Assembly (NCBI GenBank): GCA_037176845.1
Contig: JAYKXP010000086.1
Span: 165,801-229,800 of the forward strand
Direction: 5' to 3'
Length of the DNA stretch: 64,000 nt
Source of the DNA: Paramarasmius palmivorus
Taxonomy: Eukaryota > Basidiomycota > Agaricomycetes > Agaricales > Marasmiaceae
The notes below the pieces were generated by a model. It searched no databases. It was not told where the DNA came from and saw only the letters and a list, made by a program, of their open reading frames with translations. Made by a program: the position numbers and the translations under genes. The first letter of the stretch is position 1. Every line of letters starts with the position of its first letter. Positions 12,568-52,501 of the stretch are shown one piece after another.

Positions 12568-12668
12568 GGTAAGATGGCCGAGCGGTTAAGGCGTGTGACT
12601 CAAGCTTTGGTGAAAGCTTCCCTTCTCATGGGAGAAATCCCGCCTGGGTTCAAATCCCAGTCTTACCA
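12568..12668 (+). tRNA. tRNA-Leu (CAA) with 20-nt intron
   Basis: The acceptor arms GGTAAGA and TCTTACC pair, and the discriminator base is A. The D arm is GCC...GGC with a GAGCGGTTAA loop. The anticodon stem TGTGA pairs with TCATG using two G-U pairs. The loop CTCAAGC gives anticodon CAA at 12601-12603. The T arm CTGGG-TTCAAAT-CCCAG is canonical. A long variable arm (GGGA...TCCC) confirms a class II tRNA. The intron is 12605-12624, directly after the base 3' of the anticodon; its AAAGCTT can pair with the anticodon region, as is usual for nuclear tRNA introns. Pol III terminator T-run follows (ATTTTTT). It decodes UUG. Confidence 0.95.
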
Positions 12669-13065: not shown

Positions 13066-14447
13066 CTATAGTGGATCCATCATCAGCAAGTTTACTCCAC
13101 TACGCTGATACCGATTAATTAGGCTCACACTCAGCCTTCCTTGCTCGTTACATCGATAAAAGAGATGTAACACTCTCTGGACGTACTCCAGTCTCTCCTG
13201 CACATCGCATCCATGAACCGGAACGTAAATCTCCTTTTGAACGCAAGAAAATTGCTCCGAAAAAAGCAGCTCGTCGAACGCGTGCCATTCCAAGGTCGAT
13301 GACACCAAGTTGTGTCGCCCAATGACTAGATTGAGCTTTCTCAACCGATTTGGAAACGGAAGAGATTTTAGGGTGTGTTTAAGCCTTGACAGGATTACTT
13401 CAAGCTTGGGAAGCGGTGCGGGGCTCACTTTTGAATCGGGTATATGAACGCCGAGTGTGTCAAGGTGTGTAAGGTGTGATAGGTCGTATACATATTCGTC
13501 TACAAGGCAGTTGAAAGTTCAACACTGACTGCAAATAGACAATGGAAACAGAACTCACATTCATCATCCCCGAGATAACTGAGCGGATCGACGTCGTCAC
13601 TTGGGAAGCTTATGTAGAGCGAAGTGAGATTACTGCTCAGCTGGAGGTATGTTGGGACCCTTTCTCCAGGACCTGTTGCACAATCGCAGTTTAGAATGGA
13701 AAGGTATCGGAGGTTTCCCAATGGTATTTGGCTACGAAGCCAGTCACAAATGGTATCCCACGCAAATCCGTGAAAGATTGAGATATTGAGATGTAGGGTG
13801 TGAAGGAGTGGTGGAAGAGTGATCTGATCCATTTCATTGTGTAAGTCATCCGAGTCGAGGAGGACCTCGCAGCTGATACCTAGAAACTCCAAGCGCGTAA
13901 ACGAGGAAATGAATGTGAACAATGAATTGAATGTTTCCATTCGGAAATCCAAATCAAGTCTGGTGATATGTGATTGTGGGAAGCAAGTTACGAGGAGATC
14001 ATGGTAATCTCGGTGATTAAGGAGAGGTGACGCAAAGTCCATCACTAGCGCCAGGGTGTTCACGTTAATCCTTCCCATGAATTGAGAGATGATGTTGTGA
14101 GTTGATTGGAGGTGATGACTGAGTGCGGAGATGTCATTGTCATCTTCTCCACCGGCGGGCTGTATGAAAATGGTGATGTTGCGAATGGAATGAAGAGGAT
14201 AAAGGGCGAGATTGGTGTAGAAGGGGTCTGGGTGTCGTAGCTGGCAAGACACGAGGCGAACCTTTGCCCCTTTGCTGAGGTAGCACGAGCATATCGCTGA
14301 CCATGATGAAGATACGAGGCTACAGGGATACAGAAGAGTGTTCCCGTCGTTTGCCTTTGCGTGATATCCCAGAATCATGTCAACGATCTCGAGGGGAATG
14401 CATTCTCTAGAGTTGGGTTGCTTTGGCTGATTCTGACTCTGCGACAT
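13066..14447 (-). CDS. F-box-like protein (intact paralogue)
   Basis: Two exons: 14447-13559 and 13499-13066, with a 59-bp intron (13500-13558) whose removal gives DDEYEYVYDLSHLTHL. The product is about 440 residues. The N-terminus has IPLEIVDMILGY followed by SLVSSSWSAICSCYLSKG, the usual shape of an F-box domain (SKP1-binding) in this fungal family. The rest contains repeated leucine-spaced segments (ITRLDLDF, FTRLEFLGI, LPPLLHTLHLNI, LRYLSIL, LTSLYISF), consistent with degenerate leucine-rich repeats that would select substrates for ubiquitination. The ATG before MSQSQ was preferred; an in-frame Met 26 codons upstream (14525) adds no domain. A dead sister copy lies at 48-1199 on the same strand. 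F-box assignment is by motif shape only. Confidence 0.7.
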
Positions 14448-15931
14448 AGTACTTTTTTGTAACTTGAAGTGGGTACATCGCTGGAGAAGTAATATATCAA
14501 AGCGCAGTCCGGAAAGGTCGGCCAAAAGTCAACGAAGACTACGTGGTGCGGGAGTATCGGCTGTATGCTGACTGTAACGACGTGAAGTTGTCAACTTTTA
14601 TCAGGATCTGACAAGGCAGGTTAACGTCAAACGCTGTACCTGGACATGCCGACGACCCCGACAGGGTCTAAGCAGTAAGTATCCCACAACGAGAGGACCA
14701 TAACGGCCATCTTACCCTTAACCTGCTATCGACCCTCTCGGCCAGCGCAAGGTTCACACTAGGCAGAAATGATTGCTGTCTGTGTTACCAGATTTGGCGC
14801 TCAAGTTTGACATCGCCACTTTTGAGTACTATCATTGGCTTCAGCCCCGGGCGCTACTTAGTTGACATTTGGGCGCTAGGATAATTCGGATAATCGGATA
14901 TTGATTACAGACGACCTTCTCGAGTCTGGGTGTCGACAACTAAGACGTGGGGCAGGTGTGGACCTGCCCAAAGTGCAAAATTTCTCTCTAATAGAGCAGT
15001 GGAGTAGAACCTCCTCCTTGCTCATGCTTTCGTTTGTGCGGTGCTGTTCATTCTCGTTTTCGATAGTAATGCTGTTTGCTTTCATCTACTACCAATGTGT
15101 CATTATCCATAGTTGCATATTATTCACATTGGTATGAACTGGTCCGAATATGTTTTGATAAATACTCACGAGGCTACGCCGGTTCACAACGCGCTCACTG
15201 GCAAGGAGTGTGGGCAACAAAGAACTCTATTTCTCTCCAGACGACCCTATGATTATTGATTTTGAAGAAATGATATTGGATATGCGGCTCTATTCCTGAT
15301 AGATCTCTGTGCTCATCTGGCGTACAATATAGGTGAGGGTTCTGCTCACTTCTTCATGGACGGCGCGGAACAACCTTGGGAATCTGAAAATAGCCGAGTT
15401 GAATTATCCAAGAGTTCACTGTCATTCCAATTGTAAAAAGGACATGCTTGACGGAGTTTTACTGCGCTTGAACGTCGGAGTTGATGAGGAACAAATTTAG
15501 TGCCATTTGGAGCTGATTTTGTAGTCACTTGGTAGTGAGCGCCAGCGATTGAAGGGTTTTAACGCTCGTTTTACCCAAGTCGCGTTGAACACATAGACTA
15601 ATTATTGTCATGCTATGATCAGCCTTTTGCTCTCACACTCGAGATCTTGGCATAGCATATACTATACAGTAAGTCGCTATGAATACACGGCTCAGATGCA
15701 ATTGATATAGCGGCCGCTGGGTCATGATTCTCCGGCTTGACAACGCAGTTTAGTTATTTTGCACAGGACGATGTTGACAAAGCTTTCAAATTGAAGCAAG
15801 CGGCTATGTTATCAGTGCTTCCCGCCGGGATAGTTCTTAACAACGGTGCCGCCGAGATATATCTGTGCTTCCCGAATCCCTTAAATGCTCGCTGAGAAAC
15901 CACGTACCGAATTCTAATCCAAGACCCTAGC
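14448..15931. other. Intergenic, no supported gene
   Basis: About 1.5 kb with short open frames only. GGGCGCTA occurs twice (about 14849 and 14871). I see no splice chain or repeat of known type. Confidence 0.4.
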
Positions 15932-24700: not shown

Positions 24701-26068
24701 ATGGATCTTGAAGACATCCCCGTCATCTCCGGGTTTCCCATGACGGTTGACTCGTTGCGTAACTCGGTTCATCCAGTCTCTCGTTTGCCCTTCGAGCTTA
24801 TCCTGATGATATTTGACCATCTGTCACCCGCCGTTGGGCCCAAGACTCCGCCTTTCGCTGCATTTACGCTTATCCAAGTGTGTCGAAGGTGGCGTACTAT
24901 CGCTTTGAGCTATGAGCGCCTGTGGACACATATAGACCTTCTTTATCCCCGCAAAGCTCTCTTGGCGCTTCAACATTCAAAGTCTCTGAGGAGTAATGGC
25001 AGAGACCCTCCTCTACGCGTATATCTGGTGGCCACCCCCAATCATTTCCTCACAGACTCCCAAGATTTCGCTATCCAAGTTGTTCGAGCCGAAATCGATC
25101 GAGTTCGGAGTCTAATTCTTATCTCTACTCATCGATCGAGCAATGATACACTTCGCACGATTATACAAAGGCTCAATGTCTCCCCTTGTCACACTCCACT
25201 CCTTGATCACCTTGTCATCCACTTTTGCGGTCCTGCAGAAGTGTCAGGACTCTGCTCTCATTCCTGGCTAATGCCAAAAATTCAGTATGCTACTATCAGC
25301 GCCGACCTGTTCCATCCTCTTCATACTTCTCTGATATCGGGAAATTTGACAATGCTTTCAATGATCTCCATGTCACAACGACCGCATCCAGAATTATTCT
25401 GGGATCTCCTTCGGCACTGTAGTAATAGGCTGAAATTTTTGGTCCTCGACGAATCGGCCTTGCCTCTCCATCTTCCTCCAGCACAAGCTTCCAAAATCCA
25501 CCTTTCAGCATTGCACACTCTCAATTTCATCGGATCATTTCCCAGCGCCATGAAACTGAGGAAAACTGTCTTACTTCCCTCATCTACGCGGATCAAGACA
25601 CACTATTACCCTATATCGTTCTACAAAACTGAAGGCTCCAAGGCATGTTTATTACATGCGTTGCGCTATCATTGGTCAATTCTCAGGGTTAACGGATTTG
25701 CTATACGCGATGGTCCTACTGCATATTCGGTGTTACTTATTCCACTTTGCGACATTGCTTCTGCGAGCACCGACGTGCAGGAGTTGTTCCGCTGGGGCTC
25801 ATACATTGTTCTTGATACTCTGAGAAATAATCCAATTACAAAGGATGCACTCACTAGTATCGTCCGCACACTGCCCCTTCAAAACATCTCGTTTCTCTCC
25901 TTTGAGATAGCAGTCCTGGAAGCGAGCAAAATACTCTTTCGGACTCTCTGCGAAGTATTGGGAGGTTCAGGGTCAGCCGTCAGGACAATTCATGCGAGGG
26001 GAATGGTATCGAGCCTTGACCTACTGCTCTGGTTGAAGTCTCAGAGAGTCGCAGCTGGTCTTCCCTAG
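24701..26068 (+). CDS. F-box protein
   Basis: Single exon of 455 codons. Residues about 23-80 form a typical Agaricomycete F-box: VHPVSRLPFELILMIFDHL, then TLIQVCRRWRTIALSYERLW and THIDL. F-box proteins bridge SKP1-CUL1 ubiquitin ligases to substrates. The remainder has irregular leucine-rich segments (LIQRLNVSP-like, LDHLVIHF, LKFLVLDE, LSALHTLNF, ISFLSFEIAVL), the expected degenerate LRR-like substrate region. The ATG at 24701 is preceded by a 3' splice-like pyrimidine tract, so a 5' non-coding exon is possible. No stops or frameshifts. Unrelated in sequence to the F-box genes at 13 and 51 kb apart from the motif. Confidence 0.85.
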   Translation: MDLEDIPVISGFPMTVDSLRNSVHPVSRLPFELILMIFDHLSPAVGPKTPPFAAFTLIQVCRRWRTIALSYERLWTHIDLLYPRKALLALQHSKSLRSNGRDPPLRVYLVATPNHFLTDSQDFAIQVVRAEIDRVRSLILISTHRSSNDTLRTIIQRLNVSPCHTPLLDHLVIHFCGPAEVSGLCSHSWLMPKIQYATISADLFHPLHTSLISGNLTMLSMISMSQRPHPELFWDLLRHCSNRLKFLVLDESALPLHLPPAQASKIHLSALHTLNFIGSFPSAMKLRKTVLLPSSTRIKTHYYPISFYKTEGSKACLLHALRYHWSILRVNGFAIRDGPTAYSVLLIPLCDIASASTDVQELFRWGSYIVLDTLRNNPITKDALTSIVRTLPLQNISFLSFEIAVLEASKILFRTLCEVLGGSGSAVRTIHARGMVSSLDLLLWLKSQRVAAGLP

Positions 26069-26895: not shown

Positions 26896-27590
26896 ATGAT
26901 ATTCACGACCATCTTTCTTACTCTCGCCACAGTCGCTATCTGTGTCATTGGTGCTCCTACCGATACTCCGGACACCGATTTGAATGTTCTCAGCAGGGAC
27001 CGGGTCGGAGGACCTTCCGTATGGGTGTTTCACTTCGCGTACTTCCGTGTGTAGTCGGACCCACGGGTCTGCATTCGTCGGCAAGCCTTAACTTTGGGTC
27101 TAGACTGAACAGGATCCACTCTCACAAGGTGCGTTGGTACCTTGGACATTGCTTAAAGCTTCCTTCCCGATTGTGTTTTGAGAGACTAATTACCGGCTGA
27201 CATTCTTAGACATTTGCTATATTCCCCAGGCGACATGAGCTGGGGTAACCCCGACAACTTGGTAGACGAAGGATAGGTGTGACTGACTCTGCTGCTCTCA
27301 ATTGTGGTGTATTGCTGACCGAGTATTCCTACGAAACTCACCGGATTCCACTCATCGTTCTGTTCTGTCTTTCAGATATCTGCTATATCGGCAAGAAAAG
27401 GAAATGTCATGGTGACAAGAGCTGGGGTAACCCACAGAACATGGTTGATGAACTTGGGTAAGACCGCTCGTAGTTTATGATTTCGTACAATTCTGCTGGC
27501 CTGCGTGTCAGGAACCGATGGCGCTTCAACTATGGGAAAGCCAAGAACAACCCATGCGACAATCACTACACTTGCTACTGCGACAAGTAG
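26896..27590 (+). pseudogene. Third copy of small secreted repeat protein, damaged
   Basis: The gene begins with a signal peptide (MIFTTIFLTLATVAICVIG, then APTD) like the intact copies at 37025 and 38838. The following unit A is broken: only SLNFGS survives near 27090, in a frame that cannot be spliced cleanly to exon 1. The second exon is present twice. The first copy (about 27211-27275) has lost 16 bases and its donor reads GGATAGGT instead of GGGTAGGT. The second (about 27376-27463) is intact and reads ICYIGKKRKCHGDKSWGNPQNMVDE. The last exon (27514-27590) is intact: NRWRFNYG, then NPCDNHYTCYCDK. It is either a pseudogene or a gene making a shortened product by skipping. It also has extra cysteines (KCH, YCDK) that the other copies lack. 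Confidence 0.65.
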
Positions 27591-32337: not shown

Positions 32338-32377
32338 TTAGGTTCCTCGAGGCAATTCTGCTTCACTCGTCAAAGCC

Positions 32378-34886
32378 ATGGCCTGTTTTCAACCGATTCT
32401 CGGTCTCCTTGCTTTGCTCCCTGTTATTACAAACCATGCGTTCGCTGCGATAGGCCCTGTCGCAGACCTCGTCATCACTAACCAGGACGTATCTCCAGAT
32501 GGCTTTACTCGAGGCGCCGTCGTCGCGGGCGGAAATACCATTGGTCCTCTCATCGTTGGACAGAAGGTAAGTATGCTACCTTTAATTGCTCGAAACAGCC
32601 TTGACTGATTCTCAACAGGGAGATAACCTTAGGATCAACCTCATTAACAACTTGAACGACAACACAATGTTACAGTCCACCAGCATTGTAAGCATGGCCT
32701 TCTCAGTATCATTAGCTCCCGTTCCTAATTGTTTGACAGCACTGGCACGGTTTTTTCCAGAAGACGACTAACTGGGACGATGGTGTCGCCTTCGTCAACC
32801 AGTGTCCCATTGCTAAAGGGGATAGCTTCTTGTACGATTTCAATGTCCCTGATCAAGCGGGTACCTTTTGGTATCACTCGCATCTCTGTAAGTCTTGACT
32901 GAGCGCTTTTGTTCTAGATGTTGCTTTGTAACCTTTTCACCTGTCCAGCTACCCAATACTGCGATGGACTGCGGGGTCCGCTCGTTATATACGATCCAAA
33001 CGACCCACATAAGGATCTTTACGATGTCGATGACGGTGAGTGTATACTTCATGTTCGGGGTTCTTCGTAAAACTCATCATCTAACATAGAATCTACCGTA
33101 ATCACTCTTGCGGACTGGTACCACGCAAAGGCCAAAACGATAGTTTTCGGGTAGGTCCATAAAACCCTAAACGCAGAGCTATTGACCTATCGTTGTCCCA
33201 GCACCCCGGATTCTACGCTGATCAACGGTCTGGGTCGCTGGTCTCAAGGTAACGCGACTGAGCTTGCAGTGATTACTGTGACTCAGGGGAAGCGGTAAGC
33301 TTTATAGTCCTCATACCGCCAGCCTTCCCGCACTGACCGTTGAACTTTGTCAGATATCGTATGCGGCTAATCAATACGGCATGCGATCCTGCTTATACCT
33401 TTTCGATTGACAATCATACGATGTAGGCTGATTGACCCGTTAGAGAACCTTGTACTCATCATGTCGGCAGGACTATTATCGAGACCGAAACGGTGAACAA
33501 TGTACCCCTTGAAGTGGATTCATTGACAATATATGTTGGTGAGTACCATTATGTCTTTTCGTTACTGCACACGTCATCTAAGTTTCCGTTACAGCGCAAC
33601 GTTATTCCTTTGTGGTATGTCAACACCATACCCCTTACCATCATAAGAGTCCAATCACTTCTGTTATAGCTCAATGCGAACCAACCAATCGGAAACTATT
33701 GTGATTGCTACTTCCAAGTTCCTTTCATGTTCGTGCTCACCATCAAATCTACAGGGATCCGAGCAAACCCCAACGCGGGCACCATGGGATTCGCGAATGG
33801 CATCAACTCCGCTATTCTTAGATATGTAGGCGCTGAAGATGTTGAGCCCCCGACGCTCAGTATTACTAGTACTAAACCCTTGAATCAATCCGACCTAGTC
33901 GTGAGTGATATAATACCCGTTTGACGATCCCCTTGACTCCCATACTTATAGCCCCTTGATACGCCTGGCGTTCCCGGAGATCCAGTCGTAGGTGGCGTAG
34001 ATGTTGCTATGCATCTCGACTTCGCGTTTGTTAGTCCTTTCCCCACCTCGCCCGTCTTAGGACTATAGTGATTGTATTGACTGGCCTAAACAGACAAGTG
34101 CAGCGAAATTCACCGTCAACGGTGTCGAGTACATTCCGCCCACCGTCCCTGTCCTTCTCCAAATCCTCAGCGGTGCTCAAACTGCTGATTCGCTTTTACC
34201 GGCTGGATCTGTTATATCCTTGCCGCGCGATGCTACTGTAGAGCTATCTTTTACCGGAGGTCTGCTCGGACTCGATGTAAGTTTTCCATTCTAAAACATT
34301 CGTGTGGCTCCGACTTGAGTTCAATGTAGCATCCTATTCATTTGCACGGTGTGAGTACCGACCTATCAGTGTCATCTCTAGATTCTAACTTCCTTGTTGT
34401 TCAGCATACCTTTGACGTAGTACGTGCCGCTGGAGCAAGTGGATACAACTTTGTCAATCCAGTGAGCTTTCGATACCTTATTCTTCACTCTTCATTCTCA
34501 TTTCTAACCTCGTAACAAATCAAGATCCGCAGGGACGTCGTAAATGCTGGTGCTGCAAGCGACAACGTCACCATTCGTTTCAGGACGGATAATCCCGGAC
34601 CATGGATCATGCACTGTCACATCGATTGGCATTTGGAAAAGTGCGTCTTAGTTTTCGCCGCCATCTTTGAAGCACCTTAATTTGAGCTGACGGCAAGTGG
34701 CTTCGCTGTGGTATTTGCGGAACGTACCGATGAATGGAATTCGACTATTAATCCGACCGGTGCGTCTTTCATTCGTTTATCTCATTCTTCGTTGGTGTTA
34801 TTCGGATGCTGATTTAGTTTGGTGATATAGATCAATGGGATAACTTGTGTCCTATTTATAATGCCTTGGACGACGGGGATTTGTAG
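32378..34886 (+). CDS. Laccase (multicopper oxidase)
   Basis: Benzenediol:oxygen oxidoreductase, secreted; it oxidises phenols by one electron and reduces O2 to water. Eighteen exons (first 32378-32566, last ending at TAG 34886) with 17 short GT-AG introns all join in phase, giving about 520 residues. A signal peptide ([16 protein letters not shown]...AFA) precedes [10 protein letters not shown]. All four copper-ligand motifs are present and intact: HWHG, WYHSHLSTQYCDG, HPIHLHG and HCHIDWHLE. The residue ten positions after the type 1 copper cysteine is Phe (NGF), the axial position; Phe there is known from high-redox-potential laccases. ADWYH, QRYSFVLNANQP and NYWIRANP are also typical. The HCHIDWHLE exon ends at a split codon that gives Asn before GF. 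No defect was seen. Likely roles are lignin or phenol turnover, pigment or fruit-body development; the sequence does not decide. Confidence 0.95.
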
Positions 34887-36924: not shown

Positions 36925-37024
36925 TTATCAAGAGATTACATTTCACAAGCTGATCAATAATAAATAGGCATCACATCGTAAGTATTATGCAGCCCAGATC
37001 TGTTCCTCCTTGCCGACTTGCTGA

Positions 37025-37496
37025 TTACTTGTTGTAGTAGCAGATGTAGTGGTCACCGCAAGGGTTGTTCTTGGCAACACCGTAGTTGAATCGCCAGCGG
37101 TCACTGTGAATTTGCCAGTTAGTAATGTTTCGCCCAGGCGGATGACTTTCTTGCACTTACCCTTCGTCGACCATATCATCTGGGTTGCCCCAGCTCTCGT
37201 CACCATGACGTGAGCCACTCTTGGAGATGTAGCAAATGTCTGACAAAAGCAAGGTCAGTCTGAATGAACCGTGGCTCGGCATAAACACGTAAAGACTTAC
37301 AGTGTCCTGGACATGCGTTGGGGTGGCCATCTGTAGAGCCGAAGTTAAGCTTCCAGCGGTCACCTTGATCAACCACAAGGTCAGGGTTCCCGTAGGAGGT
37401 CTCGCGCTTGGTGATGACGTTGGTGTCGTCGGTAGGAGCACCAATGGCACCAATGGCAATGGTAGCCAAAGTGAGGAAGAGTGTTGTGAGTTGCAT
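37025..37496 (-). CDS. Small secreted two-repeat protein, copy A
   Basis: Three minus-strand exons: 37496-37301, 37239-37161 and 37103-37025, 117 residues. Residues 1-19 are a signal peptide, then a short acidic propeptide APTDDTNVIT ending in a KR dibasic (Kex2-type) site at 30-31. The mature part is two tandem copies of one unit. Unit 1 (35-72): YGNPDLVVDQGDRW, then LNFG and CPGHYICYISK. Unit 2 (82-117): WGNPDDMVDEGDRW, then FNYG and CGDHYICYYNK. Each unit has two cysteines spaced C-x5-C, four in total. It differs from copy B at only three residues (8, 25 and 93). I know no family with this repeat; a secreted effector, antimicrobial or cell-wall protein are all possible. It is transcribed away from copy B. 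Confidence 0.88.
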
Positions 37497-37580
37497 GATC
37501 GCAGAGAGGTTGAGAGAGCTGGTAGTACGAGGTAGTTGTCTGTGGGTACTGATGTTCTTGAGATTGAAGCTGAGCAAGCC

Positions 37581-37587
37581 TTTATAG
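37581..37587 (-). promoter_or_regulatory. TATA box of secreted protein copy A
   Basis: The minus strand reads CTATAAAGG, about 85-90 bp upstream of the ATG at 37496, mirroring the element of copy B. Confidence 0.65.
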
Positions 37588-37850
37588 CAATTTCGACTCG
37601 ATGAGCGGCACTTGCTATGCATCTCTCTTCCCCAAAGTAGTATTATTCGGAGTGCATGGTTTTGGCGACTCGGTTTCGCAACCTTCCAGCGTTTCAGCGC
37701 ACATGTCTGTGGTAAGAATCAGCTCCACTACCTGCGCTAGAATTTGCCTGCCAGATTCGCTTGTGGTGGCTTAGCTACTCGCATTATGCAAGCTCGTAGA
37801 GGAGATTTGTGCGAGTTTATAAGAGAAAATCGTTCACAGGACCTAAAATA

Positions 37851-38509
37851 CTCGCGACGACTACAGATCAGCGCGACCGGACTGTTGAGTCTTAGCTCAG
37901 TTATAGGGTCTGTAAAGGATCCAGAAACGAAAGGCTGGCACATAACCCTTTCAGAATAGTCCTGTCGACTTCGATTAATGCTGAATTTGACTATTTCCGG
38001 ACCATCCTTGACTCGGTGTCAGGTATTTAGGGTCAATGCTAGGAATTTGATTCTCCACAGTATATACTTAGGGACTCCGTCGGACAGCCCAATTTCAATT
38101 ATTAATGGAATGGGATGACTGAAACATTACGGGATCACAAGCGATGAACAACTCCACTGCTGCCGCTCATAGATGCCTATCAGGAATCTCAAACAAAGGC
38201 CTCAGCTTTATTTCAGATAGCCTACGTGATGATTGCTATGAACTATTGCACCGCTTCCACCTTTGGTGTTACCGAGCGCCGTATGCTAAGCATTAAGTCC
38301 TGTTTCTTGTTGGTAGGAGAGACGCAAGACAAGTAGAGCGTCTCACGCCTGCCGGAATACTCCACTAGTTCTACCGTGAAATGAAAGGCGACACGTTGTG
38401 GCCACGATTTACTCGAGTTGAATATCGCCCTACTAGTCAATATATTGGCGAAGTACAATGAAGAAAATGACAACTGATCGGTGGTCACATTGATTCTGTA
38501 GACTACTAC
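37851..38509. other. Unique centre between inverted arms
   Basis: This stretch separates the two divergent secreted protein genes and shares nothing obvious with either arm. No gene is supported. Because both promoters face into it, it may carry shared regulatory sites,  but none was recognised. Confidence 0.5.
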
Positions 38510-38747
38510 TCGTGCACACAGCTCTTCTATGAATTCGAACTTGCATAATGCGAGTAGCTAAGCCACTGCTTGAAGCGAATCAGGCAGGCAAATTCTAGCG
38601 CAGGTAGTGGAGCCGATTCTTACCACAGACACGAGCGCTGAAACGCTGGGAGGTTGCGAAACCGAGTCCCCAAAACCATGTACTCCGAATTAATACTACT
38701 TTGGGGAAGAGATGCATAGCAAGTGCCGCTCGTCGAGTCGAAATTGC

Positions 38748-38754
38748 TATAAAG
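38748..38754 (+). promoter_or_regulatory. TATA box of secreted protein copy B
   Basis: TATAAAG about 84-90 bp upstream of the ATG at 38838. Confidence 0.65.
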
Positions 38755-38837
38755 GCTTGCTCAGCTTCGATCTCAAGAACACCAGTACCCACAGACAACT
38801 ACCTCGTACTACCAGCTCTCGCAACTTCTCTACGATC

Positions 38838-39308
38838 ATGCAACTCACGACACTCTTCTTCACTTTGGCTACCATCGCCATTGGTGCCATCGGTGCTCCT
38901 ACCGACGACAGCAACGTCATCACCAAGCGCGAGACCTCCTACGGGAACCCTGACCTTGTGGTTGATCAAGGTGACCGCTGGAAGCTTAACTTTGGCTCTA
39001 CGGATGGCCACCCCAACGCATGTCCAGGACACTGTAAGTGTTTACGCATTTATGCCGAGCCATAGTTCATTCAGACCGACCTTGCTTTTGTTAGACATTT
39101 GCTACATCTCCAAGAGTGGCTCACGTCACGGTGACGAGAGCTGGGGCAACCCAGATGATATGGTCGACGAAGGGTAGGTGCAAGAAAGTCGTTCACTGGG
39201 CGAAACATTACTAACTGCCAAATTCATAGTAACCGCTGGCGATTCAACTACGGTGTTGCCAAGAACAACCCTTGCGGTGACCACTACATCTGCTACTACA
39301 ACAAGTAA
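38838..39308 (+). CDS. Small secreted two-repeat protein, copy B
   Basis: Three exons, 38838-39033, 39095-39173 and 39230-39308 (introns 61 and 56 bp), 117 residues. Signal peptide MQLTTLFFTLATIAIGAIG, propeptide to the KR site at 30-31, then two tandem units with (Y/W)GNPD, D(Q/E)G(D/N)RW, N(F/Y)G and HYICY landmarks; cysteines at 62, 68, 107 and 113. Unit 1 is four residues longer before its first cysteine. Intron 1 falls in the HY codon of unit 1 (phase 1) and intron 2 in the G of unit 2's VDEG (phase 2), so the repeat did not arise by duplication of one symmetric exon. No frame damage. Copy A lies head-to-head 1.3 kb away; the damaged third copy is at 26896. Confidence 0.88.
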
Positions 39309-49112: not shown

Positions 49113-50998
49113 GGATTTATTCGCAGGCGATTTCGATTTCTTGTTGAGTGGTCCAGTGAGACCGAGTCCAAGTGTTCCGGTTTGGGAGTAGGCGCAAAAA
49201 AGGGTATGGATTGTGTGTAAACGTATTTCGAGTTTCGTTTTTCTCTTTGGGATTTTGGGTACGATAGTAATCATCGGGTATTCGGTGTTCTTTCTCTTAA
49301 AACCATTGTTTCACCACGTTCACGTACAATATTTCTCCTTCATACCATGTCCTTGTGTTTCTTTTACTTATTCATTTAGTTTATCGTTTCGCAGAGTGTA
49401 TTTTTTTGGAGTAATGTTTCGTGTTCGTGTTCAAATGCAAGCTTGATTTTTTGTGTGTAATGACAGCAGCAGCAGCGGCGGTGAATAGGACCCGAGCGGT
49501 ACTCGCTCGTTCGCATGGCGTGATGTGATTGGCTGTGTAAAGGTAATCGGTAGATTGTCGGGACTTGTTCGGCGTCGGTGTTCGGGACTCGGGAGAAGCA
49601 AGGGTTCTAGAATACTGTTTGGTTCCGAACGTCCATGTCGTCTTCTAGCAAGTCGAGGTGAGTATTGAGTGGGTTCTACTGGGTTAAGCTGACTGACTCT
49701 CCGGCTGTCATTTGGGTTAGCTCCATGGCTGCTAGGTGTTCTCGGCGATTCTGATATCCGCACCTCTCGTTATTAGCGGTTGAGCTTGACCATGGTTATC
49801 GTTGGAGCAGGATTACTCCACTCAGTATAGTCGTTGATGTTGGCGGCTCGGATCCTCTTCCCTGCAATTTGGGAATACCTGCGTGGTCGGCTGTCTGGTT
49901 TTAGGGGTATCAATTCAAGCGGTTGTCCGAGTTCATCATGCTTGGAAACGTTGTACGTATCCCTCAGAGCACAAGCTGTACTGACGCCGTGGTTCAGTTT
50001 CGGTCTCAATGTTCAGGTCTTGAGGACGCCGACCAACGCATTCATCGAAAGATTCATCAAAGTTACCAGGATAACATTGATAACATTCAGGAAGGACTCG
50101 ATCGTAGAGGCGGCTGTCACGTCGTCGTCCTGGTGATTTAGGCTCTGTCATAGAACTTTCGTCACTGAAGATTCCGTTGACGAATCTCTGCCTTTAGGAA
50201 TGCACGATGGACTTACAGTACCCATATAGACGTTGAAACGTGTCTGCTTTCAAGACCTTTCAAGCAGAATACTCCACGATCGCGGTATGCTTACTCTTGA
50301 GGCCGTCGAGAAGTATGTTAATCATCTCTATAGTGACTTTATCCGCACTGTAGGGCAACGAAAGGCGTATCGTAGATATGTATATTGTAAGCACTTGGTA
50401 TAATCACTAACTTCAGGTTGTCGAACACATGAAGAGAAACAGCCATCGGGGATAGGCAAAGGGAAATGTCCATGTCTACTGCACCTTTTGAAGCACAACC
50501 GATGCAGTGCACCTATTCTTGCATCACTTGAGGTTCCCATTTTGGACTACGTGATCACAGATAATCATATAGTGCCAGCAGGCCTTGGTGCGCTGTTCCG
50601 GGGACTTTGGTTGACTGCTGTGGTTTCCGAGTCCGCAATGATTCGATGGAGGGATGTCCTTTCAAGAACCCTGCCAGTACAGATATTTATGGTCTACGTC
50701 GCGTACCAGTGCCAGATGCTGAAAGTGTTCCTCAAGGGACTCGGTGTCGACCGAAATCTGGGCATGTATGTACTATTATTATCACCTACGGCGTACGGGC
50801 ATGTCATACTGACACTCTCTGACAGGCCGACGGCGAAGTATCTGCACGTGCGGGAAACTTTATATTAAACTAAATGTCACTTTCTTCTCTCTGACCACCA
50901 CGTCGCCGCTTCTCCTACATTTACAGTATGTCCCGCCGAGTGGCTCATCTTTGTCTCCATTATCTAACTTTTGAAGGCTAGATACCCAACCATATCCT
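49113..50998. other. Intergenic with coding-like minus-strand fragments
   Basis: Minus-strand fragments between about 50145 and 49773 look protein-like: DDDVTAASTIESFLNVINVIL, then DELGQPLELIPLKP and a terminal MVKLNR. They could be exons of a small gene, but no donor/acceptor pair keeps phase. The 50.2-50.9 kb part shows nothing convincing. Confidence 0.35.
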
Positions 50999-52501
50999 AT
51001 GCAAGGGACTATTCCGCCCGAGATCCTCTCCAAAATCTTTACCCACGTCGATTTCAGTCGAAATACGAGTACGACCCACGGCGTCAAAATAAAGACTCGA
51101 CTTGCCCAGTATACCATTACCTGTGTAGGATTTCAGCTAGCGCTCGTGTGCCGCTACTGGCACGCTGTCTCACTCGCCACTCCCAGTCTCTGGGCATCCG
51201 TTGGTGTGATAATTTCGTGTGGGCCCTATCGTCAAGGATTCTTGGAAATGCTTTCCATGGTTCTTTCTCGTTCAGGTTCTGCGAAACTGTCCATCATCAT
51301 GGACGTCGACCGATCTTTACATCGGGTTGGCCTTTTTGATAGCAGGAATATTGTAGGAACGGTCACTGGAGCAGTTTTACCATCAGACAGCCGCAACGCG
51401 ATTCCGGCGTGTATACTCCGTCTTTTGTTCGAACAATCCGAACGAATCTCCCACCTAGTCTTCCGATACATCTCAGGTCTTGAGTTGGTGGAACCACATA
51501 TCCTGGTACCGCTTCTTTTACATTATTCCTCGCGGCTAAAGACAGTCACCAACCTCGCTTTGGACGGCTTGTCGAACAACACGTCCACGAGTCACGTCTT
51601 TAAGCAATTGCCGCAACTCTTGCAGCTTATTCCATCCATATCGAACCTCCAATTGCGCCTCTGCACACTTTCTCCTCGTGCATTCCAGGACCTTTCACTA
51701 TCGTCGGTGCATCTCACCCAGCTTTCGGTTCAAGATATCACCACAGAATCCATGTGGCATTTCTTACGGTACTTCACCAACCTTCGTTCCGCCACATTCA
51801 CCTTGGATTCCATACCGCCATCCGAGTTCCAAGCACATGCTGTACCCGAGGTGTGCTGCCAGTACCTACACAGTTTCACAGTCCTGTTTAGCGAAATTTA
51901 CCCCAACGATTCCATATCGCTTCAGCATTCGCCATTTATGAGTGCGATTTGTCTTCCTTCCCTCGAGAGCCTTACTCTCGGTACCGATTCCGGCGATACT
52001 TGGTCAAAGAACGATTGGCAGGCGATCAAGTTCTTTGAACCATTTATCGCTCGTTCTGCCAATGGCCTCCGGACTTTCAAGTTGGATAGCTTCCCCATCG
52101 ACTTTGAGGCGGCAACATCAGTCTTTGAAATGATGCCAAATTTACGGGAGTTGGTAGTAGTGGAGATGAGTTGGAGAGAAATGGAGAAACGATCTCAAGG
52201 CTCGCCGATACAGAATCCGGTAGTAAACAAGAATTTCATGTCGTGTTTGGTGGATCCAGACGTTCTTCCTCAGCTGGAGCATTTGCGTCTTTATGTGAAT
52301 TTTGGATGGGAGGGAACGGATCTGTTCGAGACAATGGTTGAAGCCCGGAAGTTCAAAAGCACCTACTTGCAGGTGCTCCGGCGGTCAGTAGATTTGGATT
52401 TGCCTCGATTGCAGAGGCTCATTGACAAGGGAATAGTTGTGAAGGTAGAGGAAGGAATTGAAGCTTATGGCAGAACAGGAACTCGTACAATAGTCAATTA
52501 G
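50999..52501 (+). CDS. F-box protein
   Basis: Single exon of 500 codons. The F-box is at the very N-terminus: IPPEILSKIFTHVDF, then an inserted stretch and FQLALVCRYWHAVSLATPSLW. The following region has leucine-spaced units typical of the LRR-like C-terminal half (FLEMLSMVL, LKTVTNLALDGL, ISNLQLRLCTL, LTQLSVQDI, LPSLESLTLG, LRELVVVEM, LPQLEHLRLYV). Predicted SCF ubiquitin-ligase adaptor with unknown substrate. The start at 50999 leaves only three residues before the F-box helix; an upstream exon ending near 50998 cannot be excluded. No frame damage. Confidence 0.85.
   Translation: MQGTIPPEILSKIFTHVDFSRNTSTTHGVKIKTRLAQYTITCVGFQLALVCRYWHAVSLATPSLWASVGVIISCGPYRQGFLEMLSMVLSRSGSAKLSIIMDVDRSLHRVGLFDSRNIVGTVTGAVLPSDSRNAIPACILRLLFEQSERISHLVFRYISGLELVEPHILVPLLLHYSSRLKTVTNLALDGLSNNTSTSHVFKQLPQLLQLIPSISNLQLRLCTLSPRAFQDLSLSSVHLTQLSVQDITTESMWHFLRYFTNLRSATFTLDSIPPSEFQAHAVPEVCCQYLHSFTVLFSEIYPNDSISLQHSPFMSAICLPSLESLTLGTDSGDTWSKNDWQAIKFFEPFIARSANGLRTFKLDSFPIDFEAATSVFEMMPNLRELVVVEMSWREMEKRSQGSPIQNPVVNKNFMSCLVDPDVLPQLEHLRLYVNFGWEGTDLFETMVEARKFKSTYLQVLRRSVDLDLPRLQRLIDKGIVVKVEEGIEAYGRTGTRTIVN

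Follow-up and report, generated by a model that had tools for sequence, protein, structure and literature searches.

Duplicated Paramarasmius palmivorus genes for a conserved, probably secreted protein family of two tandem units shared with other fungal genera

Fungal small secreted proteins are in many cases lineage-specific and quick to change, and the name "effector" is often assigned to them by a predictor. Among the described groups are the IGYP proteins of Dikarya, which in M. brunnea are mostly 187 to 268 amino acids long and carry two motifs, IGY behind the signal peptide and QMxIP at the C terminus, as given in the accessible text of PMC4367982. The accessible part of PMC10143347 gives seven effectors of Rhizoctonia solani predicted without signal peptides, and according to the accessible part of PMC6767637, the putative effectors of Ceratobasidium theobromae were predicted with EffectorP 2.0. 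P. palmivorus itself is reported from cacao and palms in the accessible text of PMC8581569, where mitochondrial proteins place Moniliophthora with it.

The window analyzed here, 64,000 nucleotides of a contig of P. palmivorus (Agaricales, Marasmiaceae), holds two intact genes for 117-residue precursors at 37025-39308, as the first-pass annotation of this DNA had claimed; the interval runs exactly from the stop codon of one gene (copy A) to that of the other (copy B). The features are as follows.

26896..27589, plus strand: broken relic of a third copy; an exon-2-like stretch occurs twice, interrupted by stops
36930..37796, minus strand: left arm of an inverted duplication, holding copy A plus some 300 bases 5' of its start codon
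37025..37496, minus strand: copy A gene (exons 37301-37496, 37161-37239, and 37025-37103; spliced frame; 117-residue precursor)
37028..37195, minus strand: copy A, unit 2 of the internal repeat, residues 81-117, interrupted by intron 2
37220..37397, minus strand: copy A, unit 1 of the internal repeat, residues 34-72, interrupted by intron 1
37404..37409, minus strand: copy A, Lys30-Arg31, predicted probable Kex2 site, at a position conserved in relatives
37580..37586, minus strand: copy A, TATAAAG, TATA-like by sequence, 84 bases 5' of the start codon
38536..39403, plus strand: right arm of the inverted duplication, holding copy B
38748..38754, plus strand: copy B, TATAAAG, TATA-like by sequence, 84 bases 5' of the start codon
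38838..39308, plus strand: copy B gene (exons 38838-39033, 39095-39173, and 39230-39308; spliced frame; 117-residue precursor)
38925..38930, plus strand: copy B, Lys30-Arg31, predicted probable Kex2 site, at a position conserved in relatives
38937..39114, plus strand: copy B, unit 1 of the internal repeat, residues 34-72, interrupted by intron 1
39139..39305, plus strand: copy B, unit 2 of the internal repeat, residues 81-117, interrupted by intron 2

In both genes, three exons measuring 196, 79, and 79 bases are separated by GT-AG introns 56 to 61 bases long. Of the 354 coding bases, 9 are different in the two copies, giving three residue changes (positions 8, 25, and 93), and the product of copy A is identical to the P. 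palmivorus protein VNI00_014796 (P0001). The precursor of copy A opens with a hydrophobic start, MQLTTLFLTLATIAIGAIGA, which reads as signal-like and agrees with the secreted precursor proposed before. A short pro-part follows, then Lys-Arg at residues 30 and 31 and a further 86 residues, for which the calculated mass is 9.76 kDa and the pI 5.1. In both window copies, KR lies just ahead of the mature part, and neither KR nor RR occurs between the units. For comparison across the family, we define as full relatives the 29 of 95 fetched proteins that match a strict pattern, also met by both window copies, of two units about 47 residues apart, each with G-x-P-x4-D/E-x-G ... N-(F/Y) ... C-x5-C-Y; the 66 other proteins are fragments, misannotated rows, or divergent. 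KR stands ahead of unit 1 in 27 of these 29 (4 residues before it in 26 and 5 in one) and is absent in two. From this precursor layout, secretion followed by a Kex2 cut is very probable.

The mature part is a tandem duplication of one unit, as had been proposed. The units of P0001 start 47 residues apart and are identical at 21 of 37 aligned residues, and their local BLOSUM62 score of 124 lies far above those of 2000 shuffles (mean, 22.3; standard deviation, 4.7; maximum, 48). The units of the Rhizoctonia relative P0016 share 27 of 37 residues, and across P0003, P0016, P0018, P0019, and P0028 the 22 to 30 unit-unit identities give scores of 126 to 183, above every shuffle. The four cysteines are arranged as the first-pass annotation had them, C62-x5-C68 and C107-x5-C113, and each C-x5-C sits within an H-x3-C-x2-H-x2-C stretch, of which unit 2 of P. 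palmivorus lacks the first histidine. The claimed landmark HY(I/T)CY holds in one of its forms: HYICY occurs in both units of both intact copies, whereas HYTCY does not occur in them. It is found in the broken third copy, near 27570, and seems to have entered the earlier reading by mixing in that copy.

The spacing of the units is nearly fixed in the full relatives, at 47 residues in 27 and 48 in 2. Three protein searches, including one through a longer protein, showed neither a chain of three or more units nor a single-unit protein recognized as complete. Given this spacing and these searches, the two-unit pair seems to be obligate, as far as the sequences tell. That this is a real family of two-unit proteins as described here we regard as almost certain.

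Conservation is concentrated in the mature part. The mean identity between relatives is 81% in the mature part versus 40% in the presequence (463 of 561 row pairs of a 34-row alignment, A2), figures that are raised somewhat by a choice of rows that favors intact proteins. Within P. palmivorus, pooled Nei-Gojobori estimates from the 15 intact of 17 copies give a dN/dS of 0.042 for the mature part versus 0.226 for the presequence, drawn from 105 nonindependent pairs that include allelic ones and with a mature dS of 1.43, near saturation. In 41 aligned rows (A1), chosen independently of the two-unit pattern, 15 columns are invariant, among them G36, P38, D43, Q44, and G45 in unit 1 and G83, P85, D86, E91, G92, R94, R96, and N98 in unit 2. 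Q44 and E91 occupy equivalent places, and because glutamine in unit 1 and glutamate in unit 2 are constant in all 41 rows, the duplication of the unit predates the sampled family, and the halves keep distinct identities and are not interchangeable.

The strict pattern already requires two units that contain G, P, D-x-G or E-G, N, and C-x5-C. Beyond what it demands, S1, V8, Q11, G20, S21, G24, H25, N27, A28, P30, and G31 of unit 1 and D6, V9, R14, R16, and H32 of unit 2 are fixed in the 29 full relatives. The histidine four residues before the first cysteine is present in 29 of 29 in unit 1 and in 24 of 29 in unit 2, P. palmivorus being among the five that lack it; the histidine three residues after that cysteine is present in 28 of 29 and 29 of 29, respectively. 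All 10 relatives for which charge was computed have 6 to 8 Lys plus Arg against 7 to 14 Asp plus Glu and a pI of 4.7 to 6.6.

A single-sequence search returned 64 proteins at E values up to 1, and a search with a 34-row profile returned 95 at E values up to 10, the weakest of which carry no weight. From the 64 proteins we made the alignments A1 and A2, dropping fragments, intron read-throughs, and misannotated rows; a second structural model used a further alignment, A3 (39 rows). The named relatives fall in 13 genera, that of P. palmivorus included: Paramarasmius, Cylindrobasidium, Hymenopellis, Mucidula, Hohenbuehelia, Coprinopsis, Agaricus, Collybia, Crepidotus, Rhizoctonia, Ceratobasidium, Heterobasidion, and Exidia. 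We take all of them to be Agaricomycetes, of the Agaricales, Cantharellales, Russulales, and Auriculariales. Agaricus, Hymenopellis, Mucidula, and Exidia are decomposers, so that the named genera include pathogens as well as decomposers. No ascomycete- or bacterium-named row occurs among the protein matches, a good part of which are metagenome pieces; the word-based search matches contain no Moniliophthora row, and tblastn against plasmids gave no match.

The Rhizoctonia and Ceratobasidium proteins (such as BN14_11647 and RhiJN_20728), some of them labeled "effector," are homologous over both units and have the same KR site. Among the best 22 matches, they are 61 to 74% identical to the query, with 59 to 60% at the low end. 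Their unit 2 keeps GHPNAC, a stretch that is two residues shorter in P. palmivorus, Cylindrobasidium, Hymenopellis, and Mucidula. A tree built from a different choice of 34 rows than A2 places the Coprinopsis, Agaricus, Collybia, Heterobasidion, and Exidia rows among the Rhizoctonia and Ceratobasidium ones. We do not claim horizontal transfer, as the AU test rejects neither an Agaricales clade (P = 0.27) nor Rhizoctonia plus Ceratobasidium as one clade (P = 0.08, or 0.29 without one row).

The two genes are arranged head to head, each in an arm of about 870 bases that also takes in some 300 bases 5' of the start codon; the arms are 94.6% identical over 871 aligned bases. A fold-back join in the assembly was suspected, since the arms diverge about as much as likely haplotype pairs do (90.7 to 97.2%). 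However, homology between the arms ends at 36930/39403, and the center and right flank have no other match in the assembly, so a real inverted duplication appears more likely than an assembly artifact; the left flank has only short, weak assembly matches, at its outer edge. The genome contains at least 17 matches to exon 1 and 15 intact gene models; two copies are broken (L007 on C198 and L017 on C163). Four contig pairs are near-identical over about 6.8 to 7.0 kb (C56/C239, C27/C42, C103/C341, and C86:40-47 kb/C198; 90.7 to 97.2%) and are likely to represent two haplotypes. Once these are merged, about 11 distinct intact loci are left. Seven are on C86, the window's own contig (two in the window and five at 42 to 53 kb); C56 carries two, and C27 and C103 carry one apiece. 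Because an apparently allelic pair combines an intact C86 copy with a broken C198 one (cluster L037 at C86:40-50 kb versus L039 on C198), the number of working copies seems to vary between haplotypes.

Some of the annotated models deserve comment. VNI00_008184 (P0006, 133 amino acids; the C27 copy L033) seems to retain intron sequence, and the remodeled copy is 115 amino acids long. As similar annotation errors seem to affect many relatives in other genera, copy counts based on annotation are unreliable. The metagenome proteins P0055 to P0064 and P0075 to P0085 end, by eye from the protein sequence, in apparent intron read-through, which suggests that intron positions may differ between lineages.

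Elsewhere in the window, exon-like frames at 32342-34515 on the plus strand look like a laccase, with a visible HPIHLHG that we take to be the laccase copper-site motif; the four frames of this region gave no Pfam match at an E value of 0.01. An open frame at 23020-23712 matches glutathione S-transferase domains (GST_C_7; E = 5.6e-15), and F-box-like frames lie at 24701-26065 (E = 1.4e-8) and 50975-52498 (E = 8.2e-6), with a weak third at 13503-14528, below the cutoff. ARAGORN places a tRNA-Glu (CTC) at 12595-12667, and Rfam places a tRNA at 12568-12668.

The first-pass annotation knew no family with this unit, and no known family turned up here either. Scans of Pfam, NCBIfam, and PHROGs gave weak short matches only, none of them credible, and a PDB sequence search gave no match at E values up to 10, whether the query was one protein or the 34-row profile. 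The family is nonetheless not private to P. palmivorus, being shared by the 13 named genera. Weak matches to Pfam DHQS_C (25 of 34 members; best E, 0.0012) and to TIGR04425 (4 of 5 members; E values of 0.022 to 0.13) fall on the stretch RLNYGSTSGHPN. We regard 3-dehydroquinate synthase (DHQS_C, TIGR04425, and TIGR01357) as a chance hit, covering some 20 of the enzyme's roughly 340 residues, with bit scores of 11 to 14 against a TIGR04425 cutoff of 400. The short Vsr match (19 of 34 members; best E, 0.0069) is likewise taken as chance; for DHQS_C and Vsr, the profile cutoffs were seen for the first of the 34 members, and rejection for the other 33 is a matter of judgement. No description of the family was found in the open literature, from which most subscription journals and supplements are excluded. 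By these searches, it appears to be unnamed and new as a family.

AlphaFold predicted the window's own protein with a pLDDT of 47. In a second prediction, from A3, one of five models reached a pLDDT of 72, the others remaining at 41 to 49. The predicted strands of the pLDDT-72 model (35-36, 42-45, 49-53, and 69-73) recur at 82-85, 89-92, 96-102, and 114-120, so that in this one confident model both units would have the same strand pattern, near the unit period.

Our best explanation, advanced tentatively, is that these are secreted two-site binders of general fungal life whose partner is most likely a glycan. The signal peptide would export the precursor, and a cut after Lys30-Arg31, probably by Kex2, would release an acidic chain of about 86 to 88 residues. 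Its two units, each about 39 residues long and connected by a linker of 8, would fold into one beta-rich domain of approximate two-fold symmetry held by the four cysteines; we consider such a single pseudo-symmetric domain probable. The G-N-P-D, D-(Q/E)-G-(N/D)-R, and H-x3-C-x2-H-x2-C stretches could then furnish two matching putative sites for a single conserved partner, of which the likeliest kind is a glycan of the cell wall or the environment, encountered in ordinary fungal life and not one plant's target. Such a partner is favored over a changing host target because of the seemingly obligate pair, the conservation, the spread over pathogens and decomposers, and the purifying selection. 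Ligand binding of a general rather than host-specific kind is plausible, then, although we would stop short of calling it probable. Purifying selection between paralogues is not enough on its own to demonstrate a general role, and the multiplication of copies together with the broken alleles would also fit an effector or defense gene. Moreover, since unit 2 lacks the first histidine of its motif in P. palmivorus, the two putative sites would not be identical there.

The first-pass annotation had offered an effector, an antimicrobial, or a wall protein; the near-frozen sequence speaks against an arms-race effector and the acidic pI against a cationic antimicrobial. Overall, its observation is confirmed and its interpretation partly supported. 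A plant-directed effector, secreted into host tissue to alter defense and multiplied for that role, would suit a small, probably secreted, cysteine-containing multicopy protein, the "effector" names of relatives in R. solani and C. theobromae, and the occurrence of P. palmivorus on cacao and palms (accessible text of PMC8581569). We nevertheless consider it unlikely, if a serious contender: relatives occur in decomposers, and a fast or diversifying mature part, common but not obligatory in such effectors, contrasts with the very strong purifying selection found (dN/dS, 0.042). The C. theobromae name, moreover, fits the EffectorP 2.0-predicted list in the accessible part of PMC6767637, on which, from that name, the family's proteins would stand, and the seven R. 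solani effectors in the accessible part of PMC10143347 differ from the two-unit family, with its signal-like start, in being predicted to lack signal peptides. Defense or competition against bacteria, nematodes, insects, or rival fungi, in the manner of several fungal lectins and inhibitors, is also rather unlikely. The proteins are multicopy, compact, cysteine-containing, and patchily listed over many genera, and two-site sugar binders are known as fungal defense proteins. However, a near-frozen sequence is unusual for a weapon, and the net positive mature chain expected of cationic antimicrobial membrane peptides was seen in none of the 10 relatives computed.

The conserved histidines raise the thought that the H-x3-C-x2-H-x2-C of each unit holds zinc or copper, all the more as the pattern used for picking relatives demanded cysteines and not histidines. 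Cysteines of exported proteins usually form disulfides, however; 5 of 29 relatives, P. palmivorus included, have lost the first histidine of unit 2, and the Pfam scans gave no family match supporting a metal site, which makes a putative metal-binding protein improbable. A role as a structural component of the wall or the hyphal surface would account for copy number, wide spread, and high conservation at most positions, but seems very improbable: hydrophobins have eight cysteines against four here, the mature part read from the sequence has no long hydrophobic stretch, and no anchor signal was seen in it. Finally, two fused units of about 39 residues might have given a new beta fold for two-site metal or glycan capture, with an extracellular H-x3-C-x2-H-x2-C site in each unit, near-unchanged across several orders; this is quite unlikely.

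A multicopy family common to pathogens and decomposers, with a nearly frozen mature part, is well placed to have a general extracellular function. The "effector" labels in Rhizoctonia and Ceratobasidium call for care before they are taken as host-specific; those that can be traced appear to rest on EffectorP prediction, as far as the accessible text of the source goes (PMC6767637). The short two-unit chain also suits structure determination and could represent a new fold.

In kind, the family is ordinary, consisting of small secreted cysteine-containing proteins. It resembles the IGYP proteins in being small, secreted, fungal, and multicopy with mostly three-exon genes; in contrast to them, as the accessible text of PMC4367982 describes the group, the P. 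palmivorus copies differ in size and by eye lack a C-terminal QMxIP-type motif and hence the IGY-plus-QMxIP combination. Among the listed structure matches, none to a solved fold was convincing or pointed to a ligand; those to bacterial SH3b wall-binding domains (root mean square deviation, 4.6 to 6.3; 5 to 9% identity) are within the range of common arrangements. The crystallin profile is absent from the 14 Pfam families matched by any of 34 members at E values up to 10, a search in which the HMMER filters may drop weak matches, and crystallins are not among the listed structure matches. As to the two Greek-key motifs of crystallins, what was observed is eight strands at the unit period in the single pLDDT-72 model. 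In plan, the family recalls the beta-gamma crystallin domain, which consists of two homologous units of about 40 residues: here, too, two homologous units of that size are joined, each with four strands in the predicted model.
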